Assembly: GCA_903643085.1 (NCBI GenBank)
Contig: CAHJWU010000002.1
Coordinates: 1-43,640 of the forward strand
Origin: Rhodospirillales bacterium
GTDB lineage: Bacteria > Pseudomonadota > Alphaproteobacteria > Acetobacterales > Acetobacteraceae
Reading direction: 5' to 3'
Length of the DNA: 43,640 nt
This document shows positions 13,186-40,656 of the stretch, one piece after another. The notes below the pieces were generated by a model, which searched no databases, was not told the DNA's origin, and was given only the letters and a program-made list of their open reading frames with translations. How positions within the stretch are numbered: position 1 is the stretch's first letter; every line of letters begins with the position of its first letter. Position numbers and translations under genes: made by a program.

Positions 13186-13198
13186 CGATAAACACCCG

Positions 13199-13335
13199 AA
13201 AAGGAAGCAGGCAGTTCTTTTTAGACAGAACCAAAAAAGCTTTCGGTCCGACTGTCGTGGAGCTTGGCCGGGACCCGCCCTGAATGGATGACAGTTTTCT
13301 GCTTCTTCTCGAAAGAGCGCGCTTCGCCTGTCTGC
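13199..13335. repeat. Nested-hairpin intergenic repeat, degenerate copy D
   Basis: Blocks AAGGAAGCAGGCAG, then TTCTTTTTAGACAGAACC, AAAAAAGCTTTCGG and later CAGTTTTCTGCTTCTTCTCG follow the order of the intact copies. Both palindromes are eroded, leaving only weak stems. It fills almost the whole 152-base gap between adaptor and pump genes, so it interrupts an operon rather than ending one, and could set relative expression of the two. Confidence 0.55.
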
Positions 13336-13337
13336 GT

Positions 13338-14648: not shown

Positions 14649-15229
14649 GCGACCTCCAACATCACCAGGGCTGGCCTGGCCTGGCAGCTTGGCAGGACAG
14701 GCGTCTTCCTCGCAGGCGCAGCATAGCAAGGCAGCGACCTCTCCGAAACCGCGGCTTCCGGCGAAGACAATTCGTAACACCCGGCTGGATGGAGCCGCGG
14801 GCCCGCTTGCCTCATCGAACATGCAAGACGAGCTCGTCGTTGGCTCACGCCGCGCAATCCTGACCGGACGCCTTCTAAAGCAGCTTGCCTCTTCAGCGAT
14901 TCGCGGTCTCGGTGGTGTTGCAGCCTATTCGCGCGAGTGCTTCAGCCGCGCGGCACGCGAATGTGCAAACCTGGATGGCTTCCATAGCCTGACGTTTGCT
15001 CTGCACTGACTCTTCGAACTCCCAGCCGCCAACGCACGCTCCGACTACGGACATTGCATCACGACCATATTGCAGTGCCGCATAAAGAAACGATGCTAGA
15101 AACTCTTCGAAGTGTAAAAAACCCATAAATGTGCGAGTCATTTGTCAGATCGCAGGCGTGTTCTGTGTCGCCCGGCGTGACCGGCTCAGCCGCGTGTCCG
15201 AGCCGACTACAGCATTCCGGCCCGCAATG
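14649..15229. other. Intergenic region upstream of the efflux operon; one weak frame
   Basis: No gene can be supported. A minus-strand 82-codon frame (15141-14893, beginning MTRTFMGFLHFEEF) is the best candidate, but it has no ribosome site and no family I know. GC content falls towards the right, in keeping with decayed DNA. The promoter of the efflux operon should lie here. Confidence 0.35.
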
Positions 15230-16813: not shown

Positions 16814-17821
16814 TCAGGATTCCATCGTCTTCCGGATCGCCGCCTCGATCTGGTCGCGGCTGTAGAGAAACAGCTTTTCCAGCGCCGGCGAGAACGGCAC
16901 CGGGCTGTAGGCGGAGCCTACGCGTTGGACCGGTGCCTTCAGCACGCCGAACAGGTTCTCGTGTATGGTGGCGGAAATCTCCGCGCCCACGCCGAATTTG
17001 CGCACCGCCTCGTGCACCACCACCGCTCGCCGGGTGCGCGAGACGGAGGCAAGCACCGCGTCCTCGTCGAACGGCGCGATCGTGCGCAGGTCCAGCACCT
17101 CGACCGACACGCCCTCCGGTTCCAGCTTCTCGGCAACCGCCAGCGCGTGCAGCACGGCCGGGCCGTAGGCGATCACGCTGACGTCGCGTCCCACCCGCGG
17201 GGTGGCCGCGCAACCGAGCTTCACCCGATAGCCTGGCGGCGGCGCCGGACCGGTGGTGCCGTACGCCAGCGTGTTCTCGATGAAGATGCACGGATCGTTG
17301 TCCTCGATACAGGACAGCAACAGCCCCTTGGCGTCGGCGGGGTTGGACGCGGTCGCAACCTTCAACCCCGGCACGTGCGCAAACCAGGCTTCCAGCATGT
17401 CGGAATGCTGGCCGCCGAAGCCCGCGCCGGCACCGGTGGCCGTGCGTATGGTCAGCGGCACATGCGTCTGGCCACCTGACATGAAGCGCAGCTTGGCGGC
17501 GTGGTTGACCACCTGGTCCATCGCCACGGTGATGAAGTTCATCAGCATGATCTCGGCCACCGGACGGTAGCCGGCAATGGCGGCACCGACCGCCGCGCCG
17601 ACGATCGCCTGTTCGGCAATCGGCGTGGAGCGCACGCGGTCGGTGCCGTATTTGGCCGACAGCCCCTTGGTGGCGGTGAACACGCCGCCGCCCTGCGCGT
17701 CGGCGATGTCCTCACCCAGCAGGATCACCCGGCTGTCCGCCGCCATCGCTTCGTCCATGGCCATGTTGACGGCCTGGATGAAGTTCACTTTCCTGCCCTG
17801 GACGGGGCGTTGCGCGTTCAT
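16814..17821 (-). CDS. 2-oxoacid dehydrogenase E1 beta subunit
   Basis: The 335-residue protein has the transketolase pyrimidine-binding fold with LLGEDIADAQGGGVF, TPIAEQAIVGAAVGAA and GFGGQHSD, and the C-terminal transketolase domain with EVLDLRTIAPFDEDAV. It pairs with E1 alpha to decarboxylate a 2-oxoacid (or acetoin) with thiamine diphosphate and reductively acylate the lipoyl arm. Its ATG overlaps the E1 alpha stop by four bases (ATGA). Similarity to pyruvate, branched-chain and acetoin dehydrogenase E1 beta is shared, so the substrate cannot be fixed from sequence. Confidence 0.92.
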   Translation of the reverse strand: MNAQRPVQGRKVNFIQAVNMAMDEAMAADSRVILLGEDIADAQGGGVFTATKGLSAKYGTDRVRSTPIAEQAIVGAAVGAAIAGYRPVAEIMLMNFITVAMDQVVNHAAKLRFMSGGQTHVPLTIRTATGAGAGFGGQHSDMLEAWFAHVPGLKVATASNPADAKGLLLSCIEDNDPCIFIENTLAYGTTGPAPPPGYRVKLGCAATPRVGRDVSVIAYGPAVLHALAVAEKLEPEGVSVEVLDLRTIAPFDEDAVLASVSRTRRAVVVHEAVRKFGVGAEISATIHENLFGVLKAPVQRVGSAYSPVPFSPALEKLFLYSRDQIEAAIRKTMES

Positions 17822-18804
17822 GCCGCGATCTCCGTCTCCAGCACGTCGAGCCGGAGCTCGTGCGCCTCGGGGTAGCCGCTCGCCATCGCATGGGCCGCGG
17901 CCTCGTCAATCACGGCTGCGATGTCGGCATCGATCGCGTCCAGTTCGGCGGCGGCGAACTGTCGTTCGAGCAACGCGCGCCGATAGGCGGGGATCGGATC
18001 GGCGGCGCGCGCCGCCTGCATCTCCGCCTTGGGAATGTAGTGGCTGTCGTCGCCAAGCAGATGACCGTGGAAGCGGAAGGTCTTGGCCTCCATGAAGGTG
18101 GGACCATGGCCGGCGCGCGCGTGAGCCACCGCCTCGCTTGCGGCCCTGTGCATCGCGAAGGCGTCGTTGCCGTTCACCTGCACCGCGCGTATGCCGTAGC
18201 CGGGGGCACGGTCGATGAGCTCGGCCGCCCCCGTGGACATGGCCTGCGGCGTGTGTTCGCCATACAGATTGTTCTGACAGACGAAGATCACCGGCAGACG
18301 CCAGATCTGCGCCATGTTCAGCGATTCATGAAACGCGCCGATGTTGCTTGCCGCGTCGCCGAAGCAGACCACCGTCACGCGGCCGTCTCCGGCGAGCTGG
18401 CTGGCCAGGGCCAGCCCGTTGGCGATCGGCATGCCGGACCCCACGATCCCGGTCGTCACCATCACGCCCGTCTTGGGATGGGTGATGTGCATCGGGCCGC
18501 CCTTGCCCTTGCAGGTGCCGGTCTTCTTGCCGGCGAACTCGGCCCACAGTTCCCTGGGCGGAATGCCCTTCGCCAGTTGATCGTGGATGCCGCGATAGGT
18601 GGTGACGAGGTAGTCGTCCGGCTGGAGTGCGGCCATGAGGGCGGCGGAGAGGATCTCCTGGCCGCGCGGCGAATAGTAGATGATCTGCAGCTCACCGGCG
18701 CCGATCATGGCGCGAAACTTCTCGTCGGCCCGATAGACCAGGTTGGCGCGCCGGTAGATGTCGAGAAGCACGGTCCGGTCGGGGTCGGCCGGCTCAGCTG
18801 TCAT
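17818..18804 (-). CDS. 2-oxoacid dehydrogenase E1 alpha subunit
   Basis: I prefer the ATG at 18804 (MTAEPADPDRTV), nine bases after GGGAG, over the ATG at 18813 that touches it. The 328-residue protein contains YYSPRGQE, the LVTTYRGIHDQLAKG loop, GIVGSGMPIANGLALA, and the thiamine-diphosphate/Mg motif GDAASNIGAFHESLNMAQ ending in CQNN. The usual GDGA is GDAA here, a tolerated variant. HGHLLGDDSHY corresponds to the phosphorylation-loop region. It is the first gene of the operon E1 alpha, E1 beta, lipoyl, NIPSNAP and is divergent from a Rieske oxygenase, from which it is separated by ~220 bases. Confidence 0.92.
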   Translation of the reverse strand: MTAEPADPDRTVLLDIYRRANLVYRADEKFRAMIGAGELQIIYYSPRGQEILSAALMAALQPDDYLVTTYRGIHDQLAKGIPPRELWAEFAGKKTGTCKGKGGPMHITHPKTGVMVTTGIVGSGMPIANGLALASQLAGDGRVTVVCFGDAASNIGAFHESLNMAQIWRLPVIFVCQNNLYGEHTPQAMSTGAAELIDRAPGYGIRAVQVNGNDAFAMHRAASEAVAHARAGHGPTFMEAKTFRFHGHLLGDDSHYIPKAEMQAARAADPIPAYRRALLERQFAAAELDAIDADIAAVIDEAAAHAMASGYPEAHELRLDVLETEIAA

Positions 18805-18904
18805 CGCGCGCATCTCCCAGACTTCAGCATGCAGTGGTGGCCCGCGGGGCCGGCAGGCGGCAAGCTGGCATCTTTGTCAGGTTGCCGTCCTGGCCGGACC
18901 GCGC

Positions 18905-18932: not shown

Positions 18933-19026
18933 CGAGCGGCACCGGCCGGAGCACATCACGCAGCGGGCACGTCCGGACGGCCTGACCATCAGGACGCGGG
19001 TGCCCTGCCCGACAGGAGGCACCCTC

Positions 19027-20481
19027 ATGGACCAAGCCACCGGATACCGACCCGACCGCCATCCGTCCGAATCCTACGAGGACATCCTGGAACGCGACAC
19101 ACGCGCCGTTCCGGACCATTTGCGCCAGGGTCCGACCCTCGATTTGGGCGATGGCGGCATACCCGTCACCGACTACTTCGATCCCCAGCATTTCGCCGAC
19201 GAGGTGCGCCACGTCTGGCTGAAGGTGTGGCAGTGGACCTGCCGGGAAGAGGAGATACCCGAGCCGGGCGACGTCTTCGTCTATGAGAACGTCGGCAAGA
19301 GCCTGATCGTCACGCGACAGGCCGACGGCAGCATCAAGGCTTTCTACAATTCCTGCCTGCATCGCGGCCGCAAGCTGGTCGACGGCGACGGGCACAGGTC
19401 CCATTTCTGGTGCAAGTACCACGGCATGAGCTGGACGTGCGCCGGACGTTTCCGCAGCAACCCGATCGATTGGGATTTTCCCCAGTTCCAGGATCGCGAC
19501 ATGAGTTTGCCGGAAGTCAAGGTCGCGACGTGGGGCGGCTTCGTGTTCGTCAATTTCGACCCCGATGCGGCGCCGCTCATGGAGACGCTCGGGCCGCTCG
19601 CGGAGCATTTCGAACGCTACGATCTGGCCGACCACTACAAGGCCCTGCATGTCTCGAAAGTGGTGCCCTGCAACTGGAAGGTGATGGCGGAAGCCTTCAT
19701 GGAGAGCCACCACACGATCGCCACCCATCCGCAGCTCGTGCCGTTCCTGGGCGACGTGAACAGCCAGTACGACATCCTGTCGGACCACGTGTCGCGCCAG
19801 TTTACCGCCACCGGCGTGGTCAGCCCGACGATGGCGTCGCGCAACCTGTCTGACATGGCCATCCTGCAGGCGATGGAGGCGGCCGGCGGCGGGTCCGACG
19901 CGGAAGAGGACGATCGCGCGCGCACCGGCGCACGCGATACGCCGAAGGCGCCGATGACGCTGCAGGACGGCCAGACCGCGCGCACCTACGCCGCAGAAAT
20001 GACGCGTCAGGCGCTGGCTGCCGAGGACGGCTGGGATTATGCCGGCCGGTCGGATGCGGAGATGATGGACGCGCTGCTCTACAACGTGTTCCCGCATCAG
20101 AGCTTCTGGGCAGGCTATGCGCCGAACCTGGTCTATCGCTGGCGTCCGGAGGGATTGAATCCGGAGCTGTCGGTCATGGAGATCATCATTCTCAAGCGCG
20201 TGCCGAAAAACGGCAAACGGCCGGCACCGGCGGCTGAACATCGTCTGCGTCTGGATCAGGACTGGAGCGACGCACCGAGCCTTGGCGCGCTTGCGAAGGT
20301 GTTCGAGCAGGACATGGAGAACCTGCCGCATGTGCAGACGGGCCTGCGCAGCTCAGGCACCGGCGTGGTCAATTTCGCGCTGTATTCCGAGATGCGCATA
20401 CGCCACCTGCATGTGAAGATCGCCAGGATGATCGCGGACGGCAAGCAGATGCTGCAGCAAGGTCACGTCCTGCCGGCATGA
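19027..20481 (+). CDS. Rieske non-heme iron oxygenase, alpha subunit (first)
   Basis: The 484-residue protein starts at ATG 19027, preceded by AGGAGG at the right distance; the long open frame upstream has no homology. The Rieske [2Fe-2S] ligands are Cys110-x-His112 in SCLHRG and Cys129-x2-His132 in WCKYHGMSW. The mononuclear iron site is indicated by His229 and His234 in ESHHTIATHP. It should insert oxygen into a ring or demethylate its substrate, drawing electrons from a ferredoxin and reductase not encoded nearby. A ~60-residue polar insertion (EEDDRARTGARDTPKAP) before the C-terminal domain is unusual. It is followed after seven bases by a ThuA-like gene. Confidence 0.92.
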   Translation: MDQATGYRPDRHPSESYEDILERDTRAVPDHLRQGPTLDLGDGGIPVTDYFDPQHFADEVRHVWLKVWQWTCREEEIPEPGDVFVYENVGKSLIVTRQADGSIKAFYNSCLHRGRKLVDGDGHRSHFWCKYHGMSWTCAGRFRSNPIDWDFPQFQDRDMSLPEVKVATWGGFVFVNFDPDAAPLMETLGPLAEHFERYDLADHYKALHVSKVVPCNWKVMAEAFMESHHTIATHPQLVPFLGDVNSQYDILSDHVSRQFTATGVVSPTMASRNLSDMAILQAMEAAGGGSDAEEDDRARTGARDTPKAPMTLQDGQTARTYAAEMTRQALAAEDGWDYAGRSDAEMMDALLYNVFPHQSFWAGYAPNLVYRWRPEGLNPELSVMEIIILKRVPKNGKRPAPAAEHRLRLDQDWSDAPSLGALAKVFEQDMENLPHVQTGLRSSGTGVVNFALYSEMRIRHLHVKIARMIADGKQMLQQGHVLPA

Positions 20482-20488
20482 CGGCCCG

Positions 20489-21283
20489 ATGCCGGTCATA
20501 GAATATCGTGCGGGGTTGAACGTGCTGGTCGCCGTGAGGGGCCATCCGTTCGACCGCACGGCGTTCGATGCCCTGTTCCTCGGCATGACGGGCATCGCGG
20601 CCACGATGGTCGACCAGCCGGCTGCGGCACAGCTGATGACTCCGGAGGGCATGTCGCCCTACCAGGCGCTGGTACTCTATGACATGCCGGGGCTGGACTT
20701 CGCTGCCGAAGCCGAGAAGCCTGGCTATGTCGATCCCGGGCCGGCGTTACGCGACGGCTTCACCGCGCTGCTGCAGAGCGGCAAGGGAGTCGTCGCCTTG
20801 CATCATGCCCTGGCGGGCTGGCCGGCCTGGCCGTTTTACGCCGAGCAGCTCGGCGGCGCCTTTTTGTATCGTCCGGGCGAACTGCGCGGCCGGACCTGCC
20901 AGGATTCGGGGTATCGCCACGACGTCGACTACGTGGCCGAAGTGACCGCGCCCGACCATCCCGTGATGCGCGGCCTGCCCGCGCGTTTTCCGCTGCATGA
21001 CGAGTTGTATCTGGCTGAGGTCTTCGACGATGCGACACCGCTGCTGCGCGCGCGCCACCGCTTCGAGGCGGCGGGCTTCCATTCGGCCGCGTCCGCCATG
21101 CGCGGCGCGCTGCACGACAACACAGGCTGGTCTCACCAGGACGGATCGGACGTGATCGGCTGGGCAAGGCAGGCGGCGAACAGCCGGATTGTCTACCTGC
21201 AGCCAGGACACGACGTCAGGACCTACGAAGATCCGAACTACCGGCGCCTGGTGGAAAACGCGATACGGTGGGTTGCCCGCTAG
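20489..21283 (+). CDS. ThuA-like domain protein
   Basis: The 264-residue protein has the class-I glutamine-amidotransferase-like fold of the ThuA family: an N-terminal LNVLVAVRGHPFDR, the central SGKGVVALHHALAGWPAWPF with the family His pair, LHDELYLAEVF, and a C-terminal RIVYLQPGHD with YRRLVENAIRWV. ThuA proteins are linked to sugar or trehalose use, and some are keto-sugar reductases, but most lack a proven reaction. Tight spacing behind the Rieske gene implies a joint transcript. A second, distinct ThuA gene is found at 41767, so the pathway uses two. Confidence 0.8.
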   Translation: MPVIEYRAGLNVLVAVRGHPFDRTAFDALFLGMTGIAATMVDQPAAAQLMTPEGMSPYQALVLYDMPGLDFAAEAEKPGYVDPGPALRDGFTALLQSGKGVVALHHALAGWPAWPFYAEQLGGAFLYRPGELRGRTCQDSGYRHDVDYVAEVTAPDHPVMRGLPARFPLHDELYLAEVFDDATPLLRARHRFEAAGFHSAASAMRGALHDNTGWSHQDGSDVIGWARQAANSRIVYLQPGHDVRTYEDPNYRRLVENAIRWVAR

Positions 21284-21373: not shown

Positions 21374-22387
21374 ATGATCGCGAATCGACGCTTCACCCTG
21401 GTTCGCCGGCCGCACGGCCTGCCCCAGCCAGCCGATTTCGCGCTCGACGAAGTTGCGGCACCGTCGCTGGCCGAGGGCGAGATACTGGTGGGCAACGTCT
21501 ACGCGTCGCTCGACCCGGCGATACGCGGCTGGCTCGATGACCTGCCGTCCTACCTGCCGCCGGTCGCACTCGGCTCACCGGTGCATGCGACCACTGTGGG
21601 TCGTGTGGCCGCCACGCGCAACGCGGCGTTCGCCGAGGGCGACTGGGTGGTCGGGCTGAACGCGATCGAGGATTTTTCGGTGGCGCGGCCTGGCGGCTTC
21701 CTGATGAAAATCGATACGGACACGGTTGCCAGCCCCACGCACTACCTTTCGGTGCTGGGCGCGGTGGGGCTGACCGCCTATTTCGGATTGATCGAAATCG
21801 GGCGGCCGCAACCGGGGGCTACGGTGCTTGTCAGCGGGGCGGCGGGCGCTGTGGGTTCGCTCGTGGGGCAGATCGCCCGCATCCTGGGCTGCCGGACGGT
21901 GGGGATTGCCGGTGGCGCCGAGAAGTGCCGCAGGCTGATCGAGGATTACGGCTACGACGCGGCCGTCGATTACCGCGGCCTGGATACGCAGGCGCTTGCG
22001 TCCAGGATCGCCGCGGCCGCGCCGCAGGGCGTGGACGTCATTTTCGAAAATGTGGGCGGCACGGTTCTGGATGCCGGCCTGTTATGCCTCAACGAGCACG
22101 CCCGCGTGGCGCTGTGCGGGCTGATCAGCGAGTATAACTCGACGGACGGTATGACCGGGGCGCGCAACCTGTGGCAACTGGTGGTGAAGACAGCGACGAT
22201 CTCGGGCTTCCTCGTCAAGGAGTTCCTGCCCCGCTTCGCCGAAGGTGCGCAGGTGATGTCACGCTGGGTTGCCGAAGGCAGGCTACGCGTGGACGAACAC
22301 ATCGAAGACGGCATACATCAGGCCTATCCCGCCTTCATGCGCCTGTTCGAAGGCACCAACCAGGGCAAGATGATCCTTAAGCTTTGA
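21374..22387 (+). CDS. NADPH-dependent medium-chain reductase (CurA-like)
   Basis: The 337-residue zinc-free medium-chain dehydrogenase has the leukotriene/prostaglandin-reductase pattern: YASLDPAIRGWLDD near residue 45, the nucleotide-binding loop GAAGAVGSLVGQIA, YFENVGG-like DVIFENVGGTVLD, and a C-terminal YPAFMRLFEGTNQGKMIL. Enzymes of this group reduce the double bond of alpha,beta-unsaturated ketones or aldehydes with NADPH in the cytoplasm. The start at ATG 21374 fits the family; no strong ribosome site is visible. It is followed by a convergent repeat-bearing spacer. Confidence 0.88.
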   Translation: MIANRRFTLVRRPHGLPQPADFALDEVAAPSLAEGEILVGNVYASLDPAIRGWLDDLPSYLPPVALGSPVHATTVGRVAATRNAAFAEGDWVVGLNAIEDFSVARPGGFLMKIDTDTVASPTHYLSVLGAVGLTAYFGLIEIGRPQPGATVLVSGAAGAVGSLVGQIARILGCRTVGIAGGAEKCRRLIEDYGYDAAVDYRGLDTQALASRIAAAAPQGVDVIFENVGGTVLDAGLLCLNEHARVALCGLISEYNSTDGMTGARNLWQLVVKTATISGFLVKEFLPRFAEGAQVMSRWVAEGRLRVDEHIEDGIHQAYPAFMRLFEGTNQGKMILKL

Positions 22388-22661: not shown

Positions 22662-23420
22662 CTAGAACTGCACCCGTTTGGTGTATCCTCCGTCGACGAT
22701 CACGTTCGTCCCCGTCGTCCAGGAAGCCGCCGGGCTGGCCATGAACACGATCGTCCGCGCCACGTCCTCGCACAGCCCGAACCGGCCAAGCACCATCTGC
22801 GCCTCGGTTGCCGCATAGAAATCCGGCATGTCGCGCTTCACGTCGTCCCAGTTACCGCCTTCGAACCAGACGGGACCTGGCGAGACCACGTTGACGCGTA
22901 TGCCTTTCGGACCCCAGGCCTGACCGAGCTGCTTGGAATAGGTCATCAGCGTCGCCTTCATGGCGTTGAAGGCCTGCGGGACGAAAAACGTTTCCGTGGC
23001 TGCCGTGCTGCCCAGGATAATGATCGATGCGTGGCTGGATTTCTCGAGGTACGGCAGCATGGCTTCGCAACCTTTCACGGTGCCAAGCACGTCCATGCGA
23101 AAGCACGCCTCCCAGTCGGCGGCAAGCTTGGACCCTGATGCGCTGGCAGACGGGATGAAGATGTCGCAGCCACCGAGCTGGTCGGCGATCCGGGCAAGTA
23201 GCGCCGGATAGGACTCCAGGTCGGCGAGGTCGCCCGCCACGCCCGCCACCTTTCCGCCATGGCGCGCCATGCTTGCCACCGCGTCGTCGATCTGCGCCTG
23301 GTTGCGTGAGAAGAAGCCGACATCCGCGCCCTCCCGCGCGAACAGCTCCAGCGTGGCGCGGCCGGTGCCGCGGCTGCCGCCGGTGAGCACGACTTTCAAC
23401 CCTTTCAGGCCCAGATCCAT
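22662..23420 (-). CDS. SDR-family protein with catalytic Tyr replaced by Phe
   Basis: The 252-residue short-chain dehydrogenase fold is clear: TGGSRGTG at residues 13-20, conserved C-terminal GIRVNVVSPGPVWFEGGNW and a closing TGTNVIVDGGY. Ser138 and Lys155 of the catalytic set are present, but the position that should be Tyr is Phe151 (AFNAMKA, codon TTC). The usual NNAG after strand four is also replaced by SASAS. A standard hydride-transfer mechanism with tyrosinate as acid/base is therefore unlikely, so it may be a lyase, isomerase, ligand-binding or inactive partner. Start at ATG 23420 is preceded by AAAGGA. It is 117 bases from the VOC gene on the same strand. Confidence 0.85.
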   Translation of the reverse strand: MDLGLKGLKVVLTGGSRGTGRATLELFAREGADVGFFSRNQAQIDDAVASMARHGGKVAGVAGDLADLESYPALLARIADQLGGCDIFIPSASASGSKLAADWEACFRMDVLGTVKGCEAMLPYLEKSSHASIIILGSTAATETFFVPQAFNAMKATLMTYSKQLGQAWGPKGIRVNVVSPGPVWFEGGNWDDVKRDMPDFYAATEAQMVLGRFGLCEDVARTIVFMASPAASWTTGTNVIVDGGYTKRVQF

Positions 23421-23537: not shown

Positions 23538-24044
23538 TCAGTTCAGGTCGATCTCCCGCCAGGGCTGTCCGGCTTCGGGTTCGGCGGCGACCATCGCGTA
23601 GAAATCCACCAGCGTGCTGTCGGGCCTGTACAGCTCGATCATATGTCCGTGGCGAGCGACCGTGTCGATCATGGCAAACACGAAGCCGGACGCCATCTCC
23701 GCGTGCAGCGCCACCGTATCGCCTTGCCGCTCGTATCTGGCGATGGCGGCGCCGACATCGTCCACGAAGATGGCGACGTGGTGCAGGCCTTCGCCGCCCG
23801 CAAGATACATGTCGCGGAACGCCGACGGGCCGTCATTGTTCTGCTGGACGAACTCGACCATGATGTCGCCCCACTGACCGTAGGCCGCGCTGTGGTCGAG
23901 CGGTGCCGCACGCCCGCGATGCAGGCTCGACGTCAGTCTGATATGGTCGGCGATCAGGAACGGACCGGAACCGAACTCGCTGCGGTGCCGCGTAGCCGCC
24001 ACCCGCACGTCCGGCACAAAATAGGCGAGCTGACGTATCTTCAT
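23538..24044 (-). CDS. VOC-family (glyoxalase-like) protein
   Basis: The 168-residue protein has two beta-alpha-beta-beta-beta modules: IRQLAYFVPDVRVAATRH at the start and GEGLHHVAIFVDDVGAAIARY in the middle, with HGHMIELYRPD supplying a likely metal-binding glutamate. This is the vicinal-oxygen-chelate fold of epimerases, dioxygenases and glyoxalases; methylmalonyl-CoA-epimerase-like members have the same HHVAI element. Start at ATG 24044 has AAGGA six bases upstream. It begins 16 bases after the acyl-CoA synthetase stop, so it is in the same operon. Confidence 0.82.
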   Translation of the reverse strand: MKIRQLAYFVPDVRVAATRHRSEFGSGPFLIADHIRLTSSLHRGRAAPLDHSAAYGQWGDIMVEFVQQNNDGPSAFRDMYLAGGEGLHHVAIFVDDVGAAIARYERQGDTVALHAEMASGFVFAMIDTVARHGHMIELYRPDSTLVDFYAMVAAEPEAGQPWREIDLN

Positions 24045-24060: not shown

Positions 24061-25698
24061 TCAAACCGGCGATCCCGCGCGCGTGCAGAGGAGCTCGCGT
24101 ATCCGCGCGCGCAACACGTCCTTGCGCAGCTTGCCAGAGGCGGTCATCGGCAGGCTGTCGACGAATTCGATGTGCTCGGGACATTTCTGCCGCGCCAGCC
24201 CGTTGGCCATGACGAATTCGGCCAAGCCGGCGGAGTCGGGCGCGGGTGTGCCGGTCACGACGAAGGCGCAGACGCCTTCGCCAAGCCGCGCATGCGGCAT
24301 GGACACCACGGCCGCCTGGCGCACGGCGGGATGACGCATCAGCACGTCCTCGATCTCTTTCGCGCTGATGTTCTCGCCGCCGCGTATGATCAGGTCTTTC
24401 TGGCGGCCGGTAATGGCCAGCGCGCCACGCGACGACATCGTGCCCAGGTCGCCGGTGCGAAAAAAACCGTCCTCGGTGACGGCCTCGCGCGTCTGCGCCT
24501 CGTCGGCATAGCCGAGGAACATCGCAGGACCGCGCACCAGTATCTCGCCTTCCACGCCGTCCTGCACGGGCTGGCCGGACGGGTCGACGATGCGTATCTC
24601 GTAGTCGATGGCCGGCCCGTCGCTCGCGGCAGCAAGCTCCGGCTCCTCGACAGGAGGAAAGCCCACCGTCACCAGAGGCACTTCGGAGGCGCCGAAGACG
24701 CGGAAGGCGCAGGGCTGCGCAAAAGCCTCGTTGGCACGCCGCACCACATCGGCGGGAACGGCAGCCCCTCCGCAGGCGAACACGCGCAGGCTGGGCAGGA
24801 GCACGCCACGGACTCGCGCCGTCTCGGCCAGTTCCACCAGGAACGGTGTTGCGGCCACCGTCGCGGTGACCTGGAATTTCTCAATCAGGTCCAGTGCCGC
24901 GTCCGCGTCCCAGCGCTCCATCAGGACGCTGCGCGTTGCTGACAGGAAGGGCTGTTCGAGACCGCCCGAGTAGCCGCTGACATGGGTGACCGGGGACGGC
25001 ATGAGCACGGCATCGCCCGCACGCACGCCCCAATGCGCGAAGCTGAGCTGCGAGACGCGCGCCAGCGTGTTGTGGCTGTGCAGCACGCCTTTCGGCCGGC
25101 CGGTGGTGCCCGAGGTGTAGAGCAGCAGCTTGACCGTGTCCGGATCGACTCTCGCCCAGCCGCGTGAGCGGCCACGACCGGCCGCCACCAGCGCCGTAAA
25201 ATCCGACGCGCTCTGCGGACCGCGCACCCGTATCGCATGCGCCAGCGTGGGCAGACCGGCGCGCAGGCGGTCGACCATCGCGGCGTAGTCGAAGCCGCTC
25301 GCTCCGTTTGCCCCCGCGCCAGGATAGAAGAAGATTTTGGCGGCGCTGTCTGCCAGCATCTGCCGCACTTCGGCATCGCGGTAGATCGGCACGATGGGGT
25401 TGACGACGAAACCGCCGATGCATGCGGCAAGATTGATGACCGCCGCTTCGACCCAGTTGAAGGTCTGGAAGCTCGCGACGTCGCCCGGTCGCAGGCCGAG
25501 ATCGGCCAGCGATATCGCCAGCGCCTCCGCGTTCCTCAGCAATCCGGCATAGGTCGGCTGCCCCGGATCGTTGGGGAAAACCACGCTGTCGGGCGAGGCA
25601 TCGGCCAGGTCGCGCGCGTCCTCGGCGATGGTGCGATCGCGCCACAGCCCTGCGGCACGGAAGCGGTGGTGATGCGGTCCGAGCGGAACACGCCTCAC
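24061..25698 (-). CDS. Acyl-CoA synthetase (AMP-forming)
   Basis: The 545-residue adenylate-forming enzyme carries LLLYTSGTTGRPKGVLHSHN (P-loop), FGASEVPLVT (A5), GFFRTGDLG and GRQKDLIIRGGENI (A7-A8 hinge) and a C-terminal ASGKLRKDVLR whose Lys is the adenylation lysine. It activates a carboxylic acid to its CoA thioester with ATP, the entry step for the acyl-CoA dehydrogenases and thiolases nearby. Start is GTG 25698, overlapping the upstream SDR stop (GTGA), so translation is coupled. The acid used is unknown. Confidence 0.92.
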   Translation of the reverse strand: MRRVPLGPHHHRFRAAGLWRDRTIAEDARDLADASPDSVVFPNDPGQPTYAGLLRNAEALAISLADLGLRPGDVASFQTFNWVEAAVINLAACIGGFVVNPIVPIYRDAEVRQMLADSAAKIFFYPGAGANGASGFDYAAMVDRLRAGLPTLAHAIRVRGPQSASDFTALVAAGRGRSRGWARVDPDTVKLLLYTSGTTGRPKGVLHSHNTLARVSQLSFAHWGVRAGDAVLMPSPVTHVSGYSGGLEQPFLSATRSVLMERWDADAALDLIEKFQVTATVAATPFLVELAETARVRGVLLPSLRVFACGGAAVPADVVRRANEAFAQPCAFRVFGASEVPLVTVGFPPVEEPELAAASDGPAIDYEIRIVDPSGQPVQDGVEGEILVRGPAMFLGYADEAQTREAVTEDGFFRTGDLGTMSSRGALAITGRQKDLIIRGGENISAKEIEDVLMRHPAVRQAAVVSMPHARLGEGVCAFVVTGTPAPDSAGLAEFVMANGLARQKCPEHIEFVDSLPMTASGKLRKDVLRARIRELLCTRAGSPV

Positions 25699-26474
25699 AC
25701 GCCGTTCATCCCCGCCGTGGACCCGCCATCGATGAGGTATTCGGCGCCTGTGATGAACGCCGCCTCGTCGGACGCGAGATAGACCACCAGGCCGGCGACT
25801 TCCTCCATCGTGGCCATACGCCGAAGCGGCGAGAGACCTTCCAGCGTGCGCCGCGCCGCCGCAGGATCGGGACTGCCGGCGATCGCCTGAGTGATCATCT
25901 GCGTCTCCACCACCCCGGGATGAATGGAGTTGCAGCGTATGGTCAGGCCCTGACTTGCGCAGTGCATGGCCACCGACTTTGCCAGCAGCCGCAACGCCCC
26001 TTTGGTGGTGGAATAGCCGACGTTGCCACCCAAGGCGAGGATGCCGTTCATCGACGAGTTCAGTATGATCGATCCGCCCGGGCCGCCCGGGTTGCGCCGC
26101 ATCAGGCTTATGGCGTGCTGGGCGGTCAGCATCGGTCCGGTGAGGTTGACGCTGACGATCTGGTCCCAGGCTTCCGCGGTGATCGCCTCGATGTTGGTAT
26201 CCGCCCCTTCGACGCCTGCATTGGCGAAGGCGATGTCCAGCCGGCCGAACCGTGCCTCCATCATCGACATCAGTTCCGGCCAGGCCGCCCTGTCCTGCAC
26301 GCTATGGCGGTGGAAATGTGCGCCGGTCGCCTGTGCGACCGTTGCCGCCGCCTCTTCATTGCGGCCGGTGAAGACGATTTCGGCGCCTTCCTCGGCAAGT
26401 CGCCGCACGGCGGCGGCGCCTATGCCGCTGCTGCCGCCGGTCACCAGCGCCACCTTGCCCGCCAGACGCTTCAT
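25695..26474 (-). CDS. SDR-family oxidoreductase (hydroxysteroid/cyclic-alcohol type)
   Basis: The 259-residue enzyme is a canonical SDR: TGGSSGIG at 12-19, NAG at strand four, Ser141 and the YSTTK motif with Tyr154 and Lys158, then IRCNSIHPGVVETQM and a C-terminal TGAEYLIDGGST. The C-terminal half resembles 3(17)-beta-hydroxysteroid and cyclopentanol dehydrogenases, which oxidise secondary ring alcohols with NAD. It leads the operon SDR, acyl-CoA synthetase, VOC and is divergent from the LuxR-type regulator. Confidence 0.9.
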   Translation of the reverse strand: MKRLAGKVALVTGGSSGIGAAAVRRLAEEGAEIVFTGRNEEAAATVAQATGAHFHRHSVQDRAAWPELMSMMEARFGRLDIAFANAGVEGADTNIEAITAEAWDQIVSVNLTGPMLTAQHAISLMRRNPGGPGGSIILNSSMNGILALGGNVGYSTTKGALRLLAKSVAMHCASQGLTIRCNSIHPGVVETQMITQAIAGSPDPAAARRTLEGLSPLRRMATMEEVAGLVVYLASDEAAFITGAEYLIDGGSTAGMNGV

Positions 26475-27722: not shown

Positions 27723-29909
27723 TCATCGCGCATGCAGGCGCACCGGAATGGCGCTCATGCGGGGGATGCCTGTCATGGCGTCATACTCGCGATCGACGGG
27801 AACAAGCCGGCCGGTATTGCCGCCTCGCACGGCGGGGTCGTCGTCCTCGCCCGGATTGCCACCCCAGGCATGACTCATGGACACGCAGCCGCGCCGGACG
27901 CTGGGGTCCGTACGCACGATGGCGGCAACGTGCGCCACGCGCGAGACGATGTCGATGGCGGCTCCGTCCTGCAATCCCAGCATGGCGAGATCGTCGGGAT
28001 GCAGGAACGCGCCGTTTCCGGCGACGCGCGCGCCGATCTTCGGCGCGTCATGCCAGCAGGAATTGACCACGTCGTGCAGTCTTCGGCTGATCAGCCGGAA
28101 GGGGTATGACGCATCCAGCTCGACATCGCGTTCAGCGAGCACCGAAGTCAGTTCGGCCAGCAGGATGGGGTTGCCGATGTCGAGCCGGCCCGTCCAGTCG
28201 GCCGGCCGTGGCTGCACGACCAGCGCCGGCCTGTCGAAGACGTGGCCCGACTCGCCGCAGCCTTTGACCACGTCGACCGCGACTGGCGAATGGCGCGTGA
28301 TCATGCGCCAAACATCGTCCGCGCTCGGCGTTCCGGTCATGTCCAGATCGGTGCCCGCCTGCCTGGCCGCCACCGGATCGGGAATGGACCAGTCGCGCAG
28401 CCGGAGCTCCAGGCCGAGTTGGCGGCCGATGCTATGCAGCACCTCCCACTCCTCGACCAGATCGCTGCCCGGCGGCGGCTGCGTGAGTGGTCCGCTATAT
28501 TGCGCATAGGGCTCCTCGTAGCCCCAGCCCGGCCCGAAATTGCCGAACATCTCGTTGTGCATGGTGGTGGAGGTCGTCTCCAGGCCGAGCTTGGGGGCGA
28601 GCACGTAATGCGCCAGCCGGCCGGTGGCCGACATCACGGGGTCGAAGCAGACCAGCAGATCCAGCGACCGCATCGCCGCGTAGGTCTTCTCCTGGTCCGG
28701 CCAGGCCGCCATCGGGTTGCCGCCCAGCACCAGCAGCGCACGCACCTGGCCCTCGCCTGGCATCAGGATCTCCTCAGCCAGCGTCGCCGTTGGCAGCCCG
28801 GCAGGTGTCTCTTCCAGGCCGCGTATGCGCATCTTGTGGCCGTAGCCGATAGCTGGAAACGGGCCAGGCGAGGCGGCGATGGCCGGCGCGCGGTTGACCA
28901 TCACGCCTGGGTTGCCGATCGTCTCGCCGGCGCGCAGCCAGAACCCTGCGAGCGTGGTCAGCACCTTGACGAAATACTCCGTCACGTTGCTGTGCCCGGC
29001 CATGTTCGAGCCGGTGCCGGCAGAGACCGCCCCGCTGCGGCCGGAAGCGAACAACCGCGCGGCGCGTACGAGGTCGTCCGCGGCGATCCCGGCGCGCGCT
29101 GCGGCCAGCTCCGGCGTGAACGGTGCCACGGCGTCGCGCAACTCGGCCAGGCCTACCGTTTCGGCGCCGACGAAATCGGCGTCGTACAACCCTTCGGTCA
29201 GCATCACGCGCGCGATGCCGGCGAGTACGGCGGGGTCCTCCCCGGGGCGCACCTGCAGATGCACGTCGGCCTGCGCGGCAACTTCGGTCACGCGCGGATC
29301 GATCACGATCAGCTTAAGGCCGCGTTTGCGGGCCTCATGCAGCCGCGCCGCGGGGTTGACCCCAAGGCCGCCGTTCATCGACACGATCGGGTTAGTGCCG
29401 ACCAGCAGCAGGCTCTCCCATCGTGCGATGGGCGGGGTTCCGGCGAGCCAGGGTCCGTGCAAGGCCAGACCGATCGCCTTGCCCGGCTGGTCGATGGAGA
29501 CGGCGTTGAACATCATCGGCGAGCCCAGCGCCGCCAGGACAGCATCGGCATAGGCATGGGCAGGAAAATTATTGTAGCCGTGCGTGCCCACGTAGCAGGC
29601 CACCGCGCGTGGCCCGTGCAAAGCGACGATCTCGCCGATCCGCTCGGCGATTTCGGCGACCGCCTGTTGCGAGCCTACCGGCACATGATCGCCGCCTGCG
29701 TTCCGCTTGCGTGATTGCAGCAGCCGTTCCGGCGCGGTGGCGTAGGCGGCAGACTGGCGGCCCTTGATGCAGCTGTAGCCCCGGTACGCGGCGTTGTTCT
29801 TGTCGCCGTAGAGCCTTACCGGCACGTCACCGTCGAATTCGACCACCAGGTCGCAGGCGGCGTGGCACACCTGACAGACGGTATGCCGCTTCACTCCGAT
29901 GGACCGCAC
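27723..29909 (-). CDS. Molybdopterin-dependent oxidoreductase, large subunit
   Basis: The 728-residue protein begins with a [4Fe-4S] site Cys12-x2-Cys15-x3-Cys19 and Cys47 (VCQVCHAACD, YSCIKGRQ). The molybdopterin-binding domains follow, with LLLVGTNPIVSMNGG, LIVIDPRVTEVAAQADVHL, LLVLGGNPMAAWPD and a C-terminal dinucleotide-binding domain (HPDDLAMLGLQDGAAIDIVS). No Cys or Sec is seen at the usual molybdenum-ligand position (around NAVSIDQPGK), so Ser or Asp may serve. Start GTG 29909 has GGAG eight bases upstream. No separate iron-sulfur or membrane subunit accompanies it, so it probably acts as a soluble single-subunit enzyme; hydroxylation, dehydrogenation or oxygen-atom transfer are all possible. 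Confidence 0.88.
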   Translation of the reverse strand: MRSIGVKRHTVCQVCHAACDLVVEFDGDVPVRLYGDKNNAAYRGYSCIKGRQSAAYATAPERLLQSRKRNAGGDHVPVGSQQAVAEIAERIGEIVALHGPRAVACYVGTHGYNNFPAHAYADAVLAALGSPMMFNAVSIDQPGKAIGLALHGPWLAGTPPIARWESLLLVGTNPIVSMNGGLGVNPAARLHEARKRGLKLIVIDPRVTEVAAQADVHLQVRPGEDPAVLAGIARVMLTEGLYDADFVGAETVGLAELRDAVAPFTPELAAARAGIAADDLVRAARLFASGRSGAVSAGTGSNMAGHSNVTEYFVKVLTTLAGFWLRAGETIGNPGVMVNRAPAIAASPGPFPAIGYGHKMRIRGLEETPAGLPTATLAEEILMPGEGQVRALLVLGGNPMAAWPDQEKTYAAMRSLDLLVCFDPVMSATGRLAHYVLAPKLGLETTSTTMHNEMFGNFGPGWGYEEPYAQYSGPLTQPPPGSDLVEEWEVLHSIGRQLGLELRLRDWSIPDPVAARQAGTDLDMTGTPSADDVWRMITRHSPVAVDVVKGCGESGHVFDRPALVVQPRPADWTGRLDIGNPILLAELTSVLAERDVELDASYPFRLISRRLHDVVNSCWHDAPKIGARVAGNGAFLHPDDLAMLGLQDGAAIDIVSRVAHVAAIVRTDPSVRRGCVSMSHAWGGNPGEDDDPAVRGGNTGRLVPVDREYDAMTGIPRMSAIPVRLHAR

Positions 29910-30027: not shown

Positions 30028-31251
30028 GTGGACCGGTCACACAGGATACCTCGATCGAAACTGCCGGACTTGCGGGAATTGGACGGCCTGGAGAATGCAG
30101 TTCTGAACGACACCAGCGACTGTCTGTTCGAACCGACTTGCGTCGGCGGCACGACGATCCGCAACCGTCTGGCGTTGGCGCCGATGACCCGGCAGCGATC
30201 GTCACTGGACGGCGTGCCCACCGATCTCAACGTCGAGTACTACCGGCAGCGCGCCTCCGCCGGCCTGCTGGTCAGCGAAGGCATCTACCCGTCCCCGATG
30301 GGAAAGGGATACCTGTTCACACCCGGCTTGCACTCCGACGCACACACCGCCGGCTGGCGGCGGGTGACCGACGCCGTGCACGATGCGGGCGGCACGATCT
30401 TCGGCCAGATCATGCATGTCGGCCGCCTGTCGGACCCGTTGATGCTCGATGGCGCGCAGCCTGTGGCGCCTTCGGCAGTCCGGCCCGATCCAACCGCCAG
30501 GCACTACACGATCAACTGTCCCCGCCCCAAGCGTCCGTATCCGGAGCCGCGCGCGCTGACCCATGCCGAGGTGCTGGGCGTGATTGACGCGTTCGGCGAC
30601 TGCGCCGCGCGGGCGCGGCAGGCCGGGTTCGACGGCGTGGAGATCCACGCCGCCTCGGGCTACCTGCCGATGCAGTTCCTGTCCACCAACACGAACCTGC
30701 GCACCGATGAGTGGGGCGGCAGCGTGCCCAGGCGAACAGCGTTCCTGCTCGCCTGCGTGGACTCCATGACGGCCGCGACCTCCGCGGATTTCGTTGCGGT
30801 GAAGCTCTCGCCGGGCTGGACGTTTCACAACGTGTTCGACGACGACGCAATCGCCACGTACACCCATGCGGTGCGCGAACTATCGAAACGCGGCATAGCC
30901 TATCTGCAACTCGGTGATTACGGTGTCGGGTGGGACGTGTACGGCACGCTCAGGCCGCTGTTCGACGGGCCGGCGATGTTCGTGGCCGGGTTCAGCCGGC
31001 CGAGTGCGGCCGCCGCCGTGCAAGCCGGGCATGCCGACATGATTGGCATCGGGCAGGCCTACATCGCCAATCCCGACCTGGCCGAACGCTACCGACAGGG
31101 CTGGGCGCTCAACCGTCCGGAGGTGGCCACTTACTACACGCAGGGCGAAGAAGGCTACACCGACTACCCGGTCTTTGCGCGCAGCGATCCCGGTCGGCTG
31201 CAATCGGTAGATGCCGCTCCCACCCCCATTTCTGCCGAAACAACAGGCTGA
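30028..31251 (+). CDS. NADH:flavin oxidoreductase (Old Yellow Enzyme family)
   Basis: This ~407-residue FMN TIM-barrel has the family order: LFEPTCVGGTTIRNRLALAPM, GQIMHVGRL, FDGVEIHAASGYLPMQFLST ending in RTDEWGGSVPRR, then the phosphate-binding stretch VAGFSRPSAAAAVQAGHADMIGIGQAYI. It should reduce activated C=C bonds such as enones or cyclic dienones. The GTG at 30028 has an AGGAG that is too close, and ~30 residues precede the homologous region, so the true start may lie slightly downstream. It is divergent from the molybdopterin enzyme and 14 bases ahead of an NTF2-like gene. Confidence 0.88.
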   Translation: MDRSHRIPRSKLPDLRELDGLENAVLNDTSDCLFEPTCVGGTTIRNRLALAPMTRQRSSLDGVPTDLNVEYYRQRASAGLLVSEGIYPSPMGKGYLFTPGLHSDAHTAGWRRVTDAVHDAGGTIFGQIMHVGRLSDPLMLDGAQPVAPSAVRPDPTARHYTINCPRPKRPYPEPRALTHAEVLGVIDAFGDCAARARQAGFDGVEIHAASGYLPMQFLSTNTNLRTDEWGGSVPRRTAFLLACVDSMTAATSADFVAVKLSPGWTFHNVFDDDAIATYTHAVRELSKRGIAYLQLGDYGVGWDVYGTLRPLFDGPAMFVAGFSRPSAAAAVQAGHADMIGIGQAYIANPDLAERYRQGWALNRPEVATYYTQGEEGYTDYPVFARSDPGRLQSVDAAPTPISAETTG

Positions 31252-36765: not shown

Positions 36766-37178
36766 GATGCACGGTCTCCGTCAGGCTCGAACGCGTAAAT
36801 CAGCACCGTCGTGCCGTCCGGGTCGGTGGCGAAAGGCAGCGTGGTCAGCCGCAGCGCCATGCCGATACGTATGGCGTCGAACGCCATGCCGGTCAGCCGC
36901 GCCTCCACGATGGTCTGCCCGGCCAGTGCCACGTAGCCCAGCGCGAACGGCTCGAACGCCTCTGGCCCCGTATAGGGCGGCGATTTCGGCCGGAAGCGCT
37001 GTATCGTCCAGGACCACAACGTCCCGGTGCTCGCCAGCCTCACTTCGTCGTAGGAGTCGCGCTCCCCGCCTTGCGGGCAGGGAAAGACAAAACGCCCGGT
37101 CTGGCGATGGCGGCCGCCGCGCAGGCGTGGCGACGCACCCTCGTCGAACAAGCCGGCCGCGATCGGTCGTGTGTTCAT
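36762..37178 (-). CDS. DUF35 / OB-fold protein without zinc-ribbon cysteines
   Basis: The 138-residue protein has the DUF35 layout: an N-terminal segment LRGGRHRQTGRFVFPCPQGG where the rubredoxin-like zinc ribbon normally sits, then an OB-fold with LWSWTIQRFRPKSPPYTG, FALGYVALAGQTIVEARLTG and MALRLTTLPF. Only one cysteine remains in the N-terminal part, so it cannot bind zinc through four cysteines. DUF35 proteins hold acyl-CoA for a thiolase-fold partner; overlap with the thiolase gene at 36765 (ATGA) fits that role. Start at ATG 37178. Confidence 0.85.
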   Translation of the reverse strand: MNTRPIAAGLFDEGASPRLRGGRHRQTGRFVFPCPQGGERDSYDEVRLASTGTLWSWTIQRFRPKSPPYTGPEAFEPFALGYVALAGQTIVEARLTGMAFDAIRIGMALRLTTLPFATDPDGTTVLIYAFEPDGDRAS

Positions 37179-38498: not shown

Positions 38499-39698
38499 TC
38501 ACAGCACCGGCTGCGCGCCGATGCAGCCACCCACGTACCAATCCACGCATTCGTGGAAGAACTGGTTGCCGCGCTCGTTGCGTCCAAGCACGATGCTCTC
38601 GAGCGCACCCGATGCTAGTCCCTTCTGTATCTGCAACCCGACGCGGTAATCTTCCGTCGTCAGCACCTGCAGGAAGAAATCCATCATCTGCTTGATCTGC
38701 GCGGCGTCGGCGTCGTCGCGCGGTCCGTCGCGTCGCGCGTAGATCATGCGGGTCCGGTTGCGGTCAGGGGTCGGGCCGGGAAAGGTCTGCATGACCTGCA
38801 CGATCTCCGGTGCGACGAACACGGACACGTTGGGAAACAGAATGCGCACAAAATCGAAGCCGTTGTTCTCGTGACGGCCCCAGTCTTTGCGCGGAACGGC
38901 GCCGAGCTTCTCGGCGATGGCGGTCTGCGCGAAGCCGATGCGCATATGCGGCCCGAAAGCTTCATAATGCGTCAGGTTTGACAACGTGCGGGGGTGGATC
39001 GTCTGCGGATGCAGTTTGGAGAAGTGGTAACCCTCCAGGTTGCCGTCGAAGGCGATCTTCCAGTTCGCGCCGTCCAACGCGCGTGCGCCCAGATATGTGT
39101 AGGCCGCGAAATCAAGCGCCTCGAAATCAGCGAGCATGGCGCCGTAATACGCATCGACGTCGATCGGCGCACCGGGAGTCAGCACGACGAAGATCATGCC
39201 GGCGCGTTCCACGCAGGGCAGGCGCGTCAGGCCGCGGGTGGCCCGGTCGAGCGGACCGAAGGTGCTGGCCTGGGCGACCGCGACCAGCCCTCCGTCCAGT
39301 CCGTAGACCCAAGCATGGTAGGGGCAGATGAAGCGGGACGCCGTGCCCAGCCCGTCTTCGGCCACCGGCGCGCCGCGATGCGCGCAGACGTTCAGATGCG
39401 CGTGCACCTGTCCGGATCTGTCGCGGGTGATCAGCACCGGCTTGCCCGCCGCATCCATTGCCTTGTAGCTGCCCGGTGCCGGCAGTTCGGCCGTCAGTGC
39501 CAGCAGCAGCGGCAGACGGTGGAAGATCGTCTCCATCTCGCGCTGCCAACGCTGCGCATCGGTGTAGTGTGCGGCCGGTACGGTGGAAATCCTGTCGGTC
39601 TGAAACGTGGTCCTGTCGCGCGCATAGTCGAACAGCCGTTCGGCGACGCGGCCTATTGCGGGCGTCGTGTCGCGGGAAGGCAGAACGTGGTCGTCCAT
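38499..39698 (-). CDS. Rieske non-heme iron oxygenase, alpha subunit (second)
   Basis: The 399-residue protein has Rieske ligands Cys105-x-His107 (NVCAHRGAPV) and Cys125-x2-His128 (FICPYHAWVYG). Its mononuclear-iron motif is GNLEGYHFSKLHP with the H-x4-H pair. It is of ordinary length for aromatic-ring or choline/carnitine-type oxygenases, and is not a close duplicate of the one at 19027. ATG 39698 is preceded by AAGGAG. It is the distal gene of an operon with the SDR at 39744. No beta subunit, ferredoxin or reductase gene accompanies it. Confidence 0.92.
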   Translation of the reverse strand: MDDHVLPSRDTTPAIGRVAERLFDYARDRTTFQTDRISTVPAAHYTDAQRWQREMETIFHRLPLLLALTAELPAPGSYKAMDAAGKPVLITRDRSGQVHAHLNVCAHRGAPVAEDGLGTASRFICPYHAWVYGLDGGLVAVAQASTFGPLDRATRGLTRLPCVERAGMIFVVLTPGAPIDVDAYYGAMLADFEALDFAAYTYLGARALDGANWKIAFDGNLEGYHFSKLHPQTIHPRTLSNLTHYEAFGPHMRIGFAQTAIAEKLGAVPRKDWGRHENNGFDFVRILFPNVSVFVAPEIVQVMQTFPGPTPDRNRTRMIYARRDGPRDDADAAQIKQMMDFFLQVLTTEDYRVGLQIQKGLASGALESIVLGRNERGNQFFHECVDWYVGGCIGAQPVL

Positions 39699-39743: not shown

Positions 39744-40547
39744 TCAGGCCGTGGCGGCTGCCACGGCGTGCTGCATCTCCTCGCGTGACGGGTTGCGTCG
39801 CAGGGTCAGGCCGCCGTTCACCTGCAGGTTCTGGCCGGTCATGAAACACTCGTCCCCGGCCAGCCAGACGGCGGCGGCGGCTATGTCCTCCTTGGTTCCG
39901 ATCCGTCCGAGCGGGTAGGCGGAAACAAAGGCGTCGAACAGGCCTGGAATCTTCTTGGCGTCGGCATTCATCGGGGTGTCCGTCAGGCCGGGCGAGATCG
40001 AGTTGGCGCGTATGCCGCGCGCGCCGAACTCATGCGCCACGCAGCGTATCAGGTGATCGGTGCCCGCCTTGGTGCCCATGTAGGCGGCGTGGTCGTTCAG
40101 CATGATCGTGGCGGTCGCCGAGCTGATCTGGATGATCGATCCGCCGCCCGTCATCGCGCGCAGCATCTCCTGGAAGAAGGTGAACGGGCCGGTGAACTGC
40201 AGCGCCGTCATGCGCGAAAGCTCGTCCGGCGTGGTGTCCAGGAACGGCTTGAGCAGGCCCCAGCCGGTGGCGTTTACGGCGATGTCGATGCCGCCCATCA
40301 GCGCCACCGATCGCCGGGCCAGTTCGGCCATGTCGGCAGGGACTGTGATGTCGGCTGTGACCGCATGGCCATCGATCTTGCCCGCCAGGCGCTGCAGCTC
40401 GTCTGGATGGCGTCCCGCGACGGTGACGCGGGCGCCCTCGGCGGCAAAACGCCGCGCGATCGCCTGGCCCATGTTGTCGTGGCCCGCCGCGCCAAGAACC
40501 ACAGCGCGCTTGCCCGCCAGGCGGCCACCGGCACCCGAGTGTGTCAT
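39744..40547 (-). CDS. SDR-family oxidoreductase, atypical nucleotide loop
   Basis: I choose ATG 40547 (MTHSGAGGRLAGKRAVVLG), which has GGAG upstream; an ATG at 40580 would add 11 residues without a ribosome site. The protein of 267 residues is an SDR with YMGTK and IRANSISPGLTDTPM, ending in a conserved GQNLQVNGGLTLRR. The glycine loop reads GAAGHDNMG, one residue longer than TGxxxGxG. It is closest in pattern to NAD(P)-dependent SDRs of catabolic clusters. It lies 45 bases before the Rieske gene on the same strand and probably oxidises or reduces the oxygenase product. Confidence 0.83.
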   Translation of the reverse strand: MTHSGAGGRLAGKRAVVLGAAGHDNMGQAIARRFAAEGARVTVAGRHPDELQRLAGKIDGHAVTADITVPADMAELARRSVALMGGIDIAVNATGWGLLKPFLDTTPDELSRMTALQFTGPFTFFQEMLRAMTGGGSIIQISSATATIMLNDHAAYMGTKAGTDHLIRCVAHEFGARGIRANSISPGLTDTPMNADAKKIPGLFDAFVSAYPLGRIGTKEDIAAAAVWLAGDECFMTGQNLQVNGGLTLRRNPSREEMQHAVAAATA

Positions 40548-40656
40548 CGTCTCCGCTGCGCTGTCCCTGATGCGATGCAAGAAGGCTTCGGCACCCGACG
40601 CAACTGGCGTGATGGCTAGGTCGGCAGGTCACCCGACTCGTTCCAGACTGGCCTGG

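Follow-up and report, generated by a model that had tools for sequence, protein, structure and literature searches.

The window, the whole stretch of 43,640 nucleotides that was analysed, carries on its minus strand (22662..23420) an open reading frame for a 252-residue SDR-fold protein, named SDR1 here (Pfam adh_short_C2, E 1e-43), in which Phe stands where SDRs have their catalytic Tyr; the plus-strand reading of the same interval contains stops. As an earlier note on this DNA had claimed, the gene is intact and lies within a run of catabolic genes. Upstream of it on the same strand are genes for a VOC (Glyoxalase_4) protein (23538..24044; PF13669), an AMP-binding CoA ligase (24061..25698; PF00501/PF13193) and SDR2 (25695..26474), which overlaps the CoA ligase gene and has the canonical Tyr according to Pfam and its sequence. 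The same strand also encodes a Rieske oxygenase that is a partner in the cluster (38499..39698; PF00355/PF00848) and SDR4 (39744..40580), relatives of which adjoin SDR1 in other loci. On the plus strand, an MDR reductase gene (21374..22387; PF16884/PF00107) converges on SDR1; its product scores 341.6 bits against the NCBIfam curcumin reductase model, under the cut-off of 440. A ThuA-domain protein (20489..21283; PF06283) and a second Rieske oxygenase (18988..20481) are encoded on the plus strand as well, the latter with a hand-set start in a reading frame that opens at 17860 and with its Pfam assignment made on the long frame.

Several other genes of the window were noted. E1 alpha and beta genes are present at 16814-18813, and an E2 acyltransferase open reading frame (37321-38073, 250 aa) aligns with PDH E2 models over their C-terminal catalytic part only; no E3 was found among the window open reading frames given to Pfam. 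A molybdopterin oxidoreductase gene (27723-29909, 728 aa), for which all NCBIfam matches lie far under cut-off, adjoins that of an OYE-type reductase (30028-31251). A thiolase of the lipid-transfer type is paired with an OB-fold ChsH2_C protein at 35620-37178, a kind of pair known from steroid side-chain aldolases. Beside the catabolic cluster is an RND-type efflux set (8531-14822) consisting of an outer membrane protein, an AcrB-like pump and a membrane-fusion protein.

The active site of SDR1 was compared with that of classical SDRs by alignment (codons on the minus strand throughout). Ser138 (23007..23009) and Lys155 (22956..22958) match the Ser and Lys of the SDR triad, as previously proposed, and the coenzyme motif TGxxxGxG is present as T13-G-G-S-R-G-T-G20. 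The catalytic segment, F151-N-A-M-K155, lacks the Tyr of YxxxK, and the codon of Phe151 (22968..22970) is indeed TTC (bases 22970-22968), as had been read. NNAG is replaced, as the earlier note stated, but by Pro90-Ser91-Ala92-Ser93 (23142..23153) rather than by the SASAS that it named, which begins one residue later. A further change that had escaped attention is the replacement of Asn in the N-S-Y-K tetrad by Asp110 (23091..23093). Glu143 (22992..22994), five residues beyond Ser138, is a candidate substitute acid/base. Of the 25 NCBIfam models listed, out of 214 matched, none gives SDR1 a score that reaches its curated cut-off.

The fold, which had been called well conserved, is modelled by AlphaFold2 as a confident classical SDR (mean pLDDT 96.1, pTM 0.94), a single Rossmann domain of about 250 aa, and the best 1000 Foldseek chains all have Z >= 8. 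In VIA-align, the top match to the model is the NADP+ complex of a plant SDR, 6y4d (Z 34.2, rmsd 1.7 over 244 residues), with which 3ai3 ties (Z 34.1, rmsd 1.6 over 243 residues). The available text of PMC7540600 describes the 6y4d enzyme as imine-reducing and 5ff9, another of the closest folds, as enone-reducing, and discusses alternative proton donors of imine-reducing enzymes.

Homologues of SDR1 were collected by a pattern scan, by whole-protein searches of four overlapping genome samples (299, 397, 385 and 398 genomes), and by a plasmid search in which 71 records matched and 13 regions were read. After removal of identical proteins, and with a few genome matches left out, 217 distinct homologues of at least 34% identity (window included) have Tyr at position 151 in 161 cases and Phe in 56; thus Phe is the minority state. 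Apart from the window protein, the pattern scan supplied 48 Phe forms, the genomes 5 Phe and 151 Tyr forms, and the plasmids 2 Phe and 10 Tyr forms; the 48 stem from a scan biased towards Phe, and the remaining sources contribute 7 Phe and 161 Tyr forms. An initial impression that Phe is invariant in the family, drawn from its presence in 50 of the 51 loci of the first scan (the exception being the distant L051), was refuted by the many Tyr relatives in the whole-protein searches, and it was an artefact because one of the six search peptides contained the Phe motif. No SDR1 match at E 1e-50 was found in the two genomes listed in the genus of the window, and the gene is therefore accessory. Phe codons are TTC in 38 and TTT in 20 of the 58 matches counted before duplicates were removed, and recurrence of Phe in independent records at 49-81% identity makes a sequencing error at the codon very unlikely.

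Conservation at the other positions of interest differs in its relation to residue 151. Asp110 and Lys155 are present in all 217 homologues, Trp191 in 216 and Ser93 in 205. Ser138, Lys155, Asp110 and Glu143 are each found in 56 of 56 Phe forms, and among the 161 Tyr forms Ser138 is found in 125 and Glu143 in 127. Arg39 is kept in 55/56 Phe and 160/161 Tyr forms; the coenzyme motif is less strict in some Phe forms (GGxxRGIS in L063, L088 and L090). The replacements of NNAG and of the tetrad Asn are traits of the family, separate from the loss of Tyr, because they are common to Tyr-bearing relatives. Tyr71 occurs in 56/56 Phe versus 23/161 Tyr forms, His90 in 36/56 versus 7/161 (the window protein has Pro90), and nine positions besides 151 separate the Phe forms from the near Tyr forms, those with Glu143 and Asn152. 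The background consisted of 109 other SDR-like open reading frames in the fetched loci, excluding rows gapped at 110, 151 or 155; these have Tyr at position 151 in 100 cases and Phe in none, Asn at position 110 in 66, and the equivalent of Glu143 in 11. Gln occupies the tetrad Asn position in 17 of the 109, and also in SDR4 of the window (LQFTG) and in its relatives in L089 and L092, two loci described below.

The Phe forms and the near Tyr forms have similar surroundings. Relatives of the window's Rieske oxygenases were counted within 6.5 kb of SDR1 in 37/49 Phe, 9/18 near Tyr and 0/48 far Tyr loci, those of the CoA ligase in 30/49, 7/18 and 6/48, those of the ThuA-domain protein in 25/49, 9/18 and 0/48, and those of E1 in 27/49, 6/18 and 1/48, in a count that excludes loci shorter than 6.5 kb, keeps near-copies, draws most of its Phe loci from the biased scan, and misses distant relatives since the probes were the window's own genes. 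Within these limits, a Rieske-linked catabolic setting is common to Phe and near Tyr forms. A megaplasmid of Sphingobium sp. TomTYG74 carries one Phe form (L090:11956-12705), surrounded by genes for acyl-CoA dehydrogenase and enoyl-CoA hydratase; strains of this type presumably originate from tomato, and a link of this Phe form to tomatine degradation is a lead. The term 'short-chain dehydrogenase' does not occur in the accessible text of PMC10653915, which was checked for the tomatine link.

Purifying selection acts on the Phe forms, with Nei-Gojobori dN/dS of 0.02-0.25 in the 12 Phe-Phe pairs that gave a finite estimate among 14 listed, one other (window-L001) being saturated at synonymous sites. 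The previous suggestion that selection maintains a non-classical function stands insofar as the Phe form is maintained in a set of relatives; the function itself may or may not be 'non-classical'. Phe is conserved within its clade, in at least two lineages, the larger of which has Tyr forms inside it. A tree of 98 representatives, built without near-copies, rows of fewer than 230 residues or the trait column, requires at least four changes between Phe and Tyr, two of them forced by well-supported branches; a 42-row tree also requires at least four, and Phe makes up one side in 0% of its bootstrap trees. The AU test on these 42 rows rejects a single Phe clade (p = 0.0002) but not a large Phe clade from which the three Tyr rows nested in it are excluded (p = 0.114), so that reversals inside this clade are unproven; these and the later p values are somewhat optimistic, since the groups were picked after trees or identities had been viewed. 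More than one switch between Tyr and Phe is supported.

Tyr and Phe forms also occupy the same slot in closely similar operons. Plasmid pNL2 of N. aromaticivorans (L089) has a Tyr form in the gene order TIM-Rieske-CoA ligase-FAD oxidoreductase-SDR4-SDR1-VOC-Rieske, and two loci with Phe forms, L008 (Novosphingobium sp. AAP83) and L009 (Novosphingobium sp. ERN07), share most of this gene set. Their TIM, Rieske2, CoA ligase, SDR4, VOC and MDR proteins are 81-96% identical to those of L089, but their SDR1 proteins only 69-70%, and in 75-base steps their DNA is less similar to that of L089 in SDR1 and the preceding gap than in most of SDR4 and VOC. By the same measure, which is noisy, L089 and the Tyr locus L092 are 77-93% identical over SDR1. 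The SDR4 tree groups L008, L009, L089 and L092 (100/99), and the SDR1 tree groups L224, L089 and L092 (100/99). Constraining SDR1 to the grouping of its neighbours is rejected (AU p = 6e-9), as are constraining SDR4 to the SDR1 grouping (AU p = 0.0003) and ACS to the SDR1 grouping, with L089 beside L224 (AU p = 0.002). Because neither gene accepts the grouping of the other, SDR1 was seemingly replaced singly within the operon; a spell of rapid change along a single lineage is less likely. Entry of a Phe form into the L008/L009 lineage would be the likelier direction, because SDR1 of L008 is 86% identical to that of L011, and SDR4 and ACS of these loci only 72% and 71%. Tyr homologues in the same operon context, which the earlier note had named as a sign of a lone loss-of-function mutation, are thus present (L089, L092, L224 and L110), but they do not point to such a mutation. 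With both forms found in it, this slot probably does not require the hydroxyl of Tyr. SARO_RS18305, a Tyr form of N. aromaticivorans, is absent from the portions of the gene table of PMC12997858 that were consulted, and a term search gave no match to it in the accessible text of PMC12607616; both papers concern lignin-dimer pathways.

The Phe form is real and conserved, and seems to be a functional variant rather than a broken gene. The interpretation advanced here, tentatively and with not quite an even chance of being correct, is that SDR1 is a functional SDR of an Asp-Ser-[Tyr/Phe]-Lys family in which the catalytic Tyr hydroxyl is dispensable, proton chemistry probably being carried out by Glu143/Asp110-Lys155-water. 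SDR1 would still bind NADP(H), as Arg39 after strand 2 and the TGxxxGxG motif suggest, and would transfer hydride to or from an intermediate of a Rieske/CoA-ligase pathway. The proton usually handled by Tyr would pass through Glu143 and/or a water bound by Asp110-Lys155, or else be supplied by the substrate itself, which might be a carbonyl that is activated, conjugated or phenolic; the difference between Tyr and Phe would then tune specificity or rate, and not decide whether the enzyme works. Dispensability of Tyr is supported by the intact fold, by the invariance of Asp110 and Lys155, and by the presence of Phe in two lineages under purifying selection. It is doubtful, though worth considering, that the acid/base function has moved from Tyr to Glu143/Asp110-Lys155 and that Tyr and Phe have been exchanged repeatedly, even by single-gene replacement in conserved operons.

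A search of loop 139-150 in the 56 Phe forms for a migrated Tyr found no common Tyr, nor a common His or Cys. In FabI-type divergent SDRs the Tyr lies seven residues before Lys, which corresponds to position 148; here this position is Pro in 55/56 Phe forms, and position 140 is Ala or Asn. Which forms have lost Tyr is not accounted for by Glu143, since 127 of the Tyr forms have this residue too, and Tyr is kept by 161 of 217 members, so for most of them the hydroxyl must be important. A compensating residue of the Phe forms outside the loop is possible, given Tyr71 and His90; instead, each Phe lineage could have a different substrate.

One alternative is that Phe and Tyr forms differ in substrate or direction, gene replacement fitting the pathway to another compound; for example, the Phe form might carry out C=C (ene) or imine reduction and not ketoreduction. 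This is rather unlikely. In its favour, among the operon genes compared, the SDR1 tree alone departs; nine other positions divide the Phe forms from the near Tyr forms; the closest folds include plant SDRs that reduce imines (6y4d) and enones (5ff9); and, in the accessible part of PMC4988499, a change of the acid residue switches mint SDRs between ketoreduction and ene reduction. The high identity of the neighbouring enzymes across the swap, however, argues for the same pathway.

It is improbable that SDR1 is a non-redox enzyme, in which NADP has a structural role or is absent, while Ser138, Lys155, Asp110 and Glu143 perform dehydration, isomerisation or retro-aldol cleavage. In favour of it, the central acid of SDRs is lost, and two strongly conserved acidic residues are placed by alignment at or near the active site; but Arg39 is equally conserved in both forms, and Tyr forms whose Ser-Tyr-Lys triad is intact take the same slot. 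More improbable still is a non-catalytic SDR1 that partners another SDR of the cluster, such as SDR4, in a mixed tetramer. SDR4 genes adjoin SDR1 divergently in L008-L014, L043, L089, L092, L110 and L224 (an arrangement absent from the window), and mixed SDR oligomers exist, to judge from the title of PDB 7dn1; yet relaxed constraint on the remaining catalytic residues would be expected, all four are kept by every Phe form, and Tyr forms replace the Phe form in similar operons. Decay, in which Phe is a loss-of-function substitution on the way to a pseudogene, is scarcely credible and is contradicted, the Tyr homologues in the same operon context notwithstanding, by open reading frames, dN/dS well under 1, and Phe in 56 of 217 sequences and in more than one clade, which likewise contradict a lone loss-of-function mutation.

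Textbooks give the catalytic Tyr as the acid/base of this very large superfamily, and an SDR without it is readily taken for one that has lost its function. Closely similar operons with Tyr or Phe in the same slot, such as L009 and L089, are natural pairs for examining the need for the hydroxyl, and a relocated acid/base, if true, would make them nature's own test of when an SDR can spare its tyrosine. The conserved acidic pair Asp110 and Glu143 may define an overlooked SDR family, found partly in sphingomonad catabolic clusters.

Literature searches on missing or replaced SDR Tyr, with most subscription journals outside their coverage, found no paper on the Phe family of SDR1, and several SDRs that lack Tyr offer comparisons. 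Peroxisomal 2,4-dienoyl-CoA reductase DECR2 would resemble SDR1 in having Asp at the tetrad Asn position, keeping Lys and lacking Tyr. Q9HYA2 of Pseudomonas aeruginosa would differ from SDR1 in its Lys-Ser-Thr-Arg centre. Its structure (PDB 3lf2) is by its entry title that of an SDR with an atypical catalytic centre, and it matches the SDR1 model with Z 33.0. In isopiperitenone reductase (IPR) of mint, according to the accessible part of PMC4988499, Glu238 replaces Tyr and serves as the acid for C=C reduction; SDR1 has likewise replaced Tyr, but the Glu of IPR is at the Tyr position and its Asn is kept, whereas Glu143 of SDR1 lies 8 residues earlier and Asn has become Asp. SimC7 (Ser-Ile-His), in the available text of PMC5039031, is an active ketoreductase without Tyr that employs substrate-assisted catalysis, and is thus a model for substrate-assisted proton transfer in SDR1; unlike SDR1, it has also lost Lys (to His), functions in polyketide biosynthesis and has a separate substrate-binding domain. 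According to the accessible portion of PMC11614110, BcSDR of Burkholderia cenocepacia (LxxxK) combines, as SDR1 does, a classical cofactor motif and fold with a hydrophobic residue in place of Tyr that is conserved across its clade, and retains Ser and Lys; it has a water at the site of the Tyr hydroxyl. BcSDR differs from SDR1 in having Leu rather than Phe and in belonging to the Burkholderiales, and that portion of the paper mentions no Tyr form in the equivalent operon slot. Thus, clade-conserved loss of the SDR Tyr is already known from BcSDR, and the exchange of Tyr and Phe in one operon slot is the noteworthy part of the present case.
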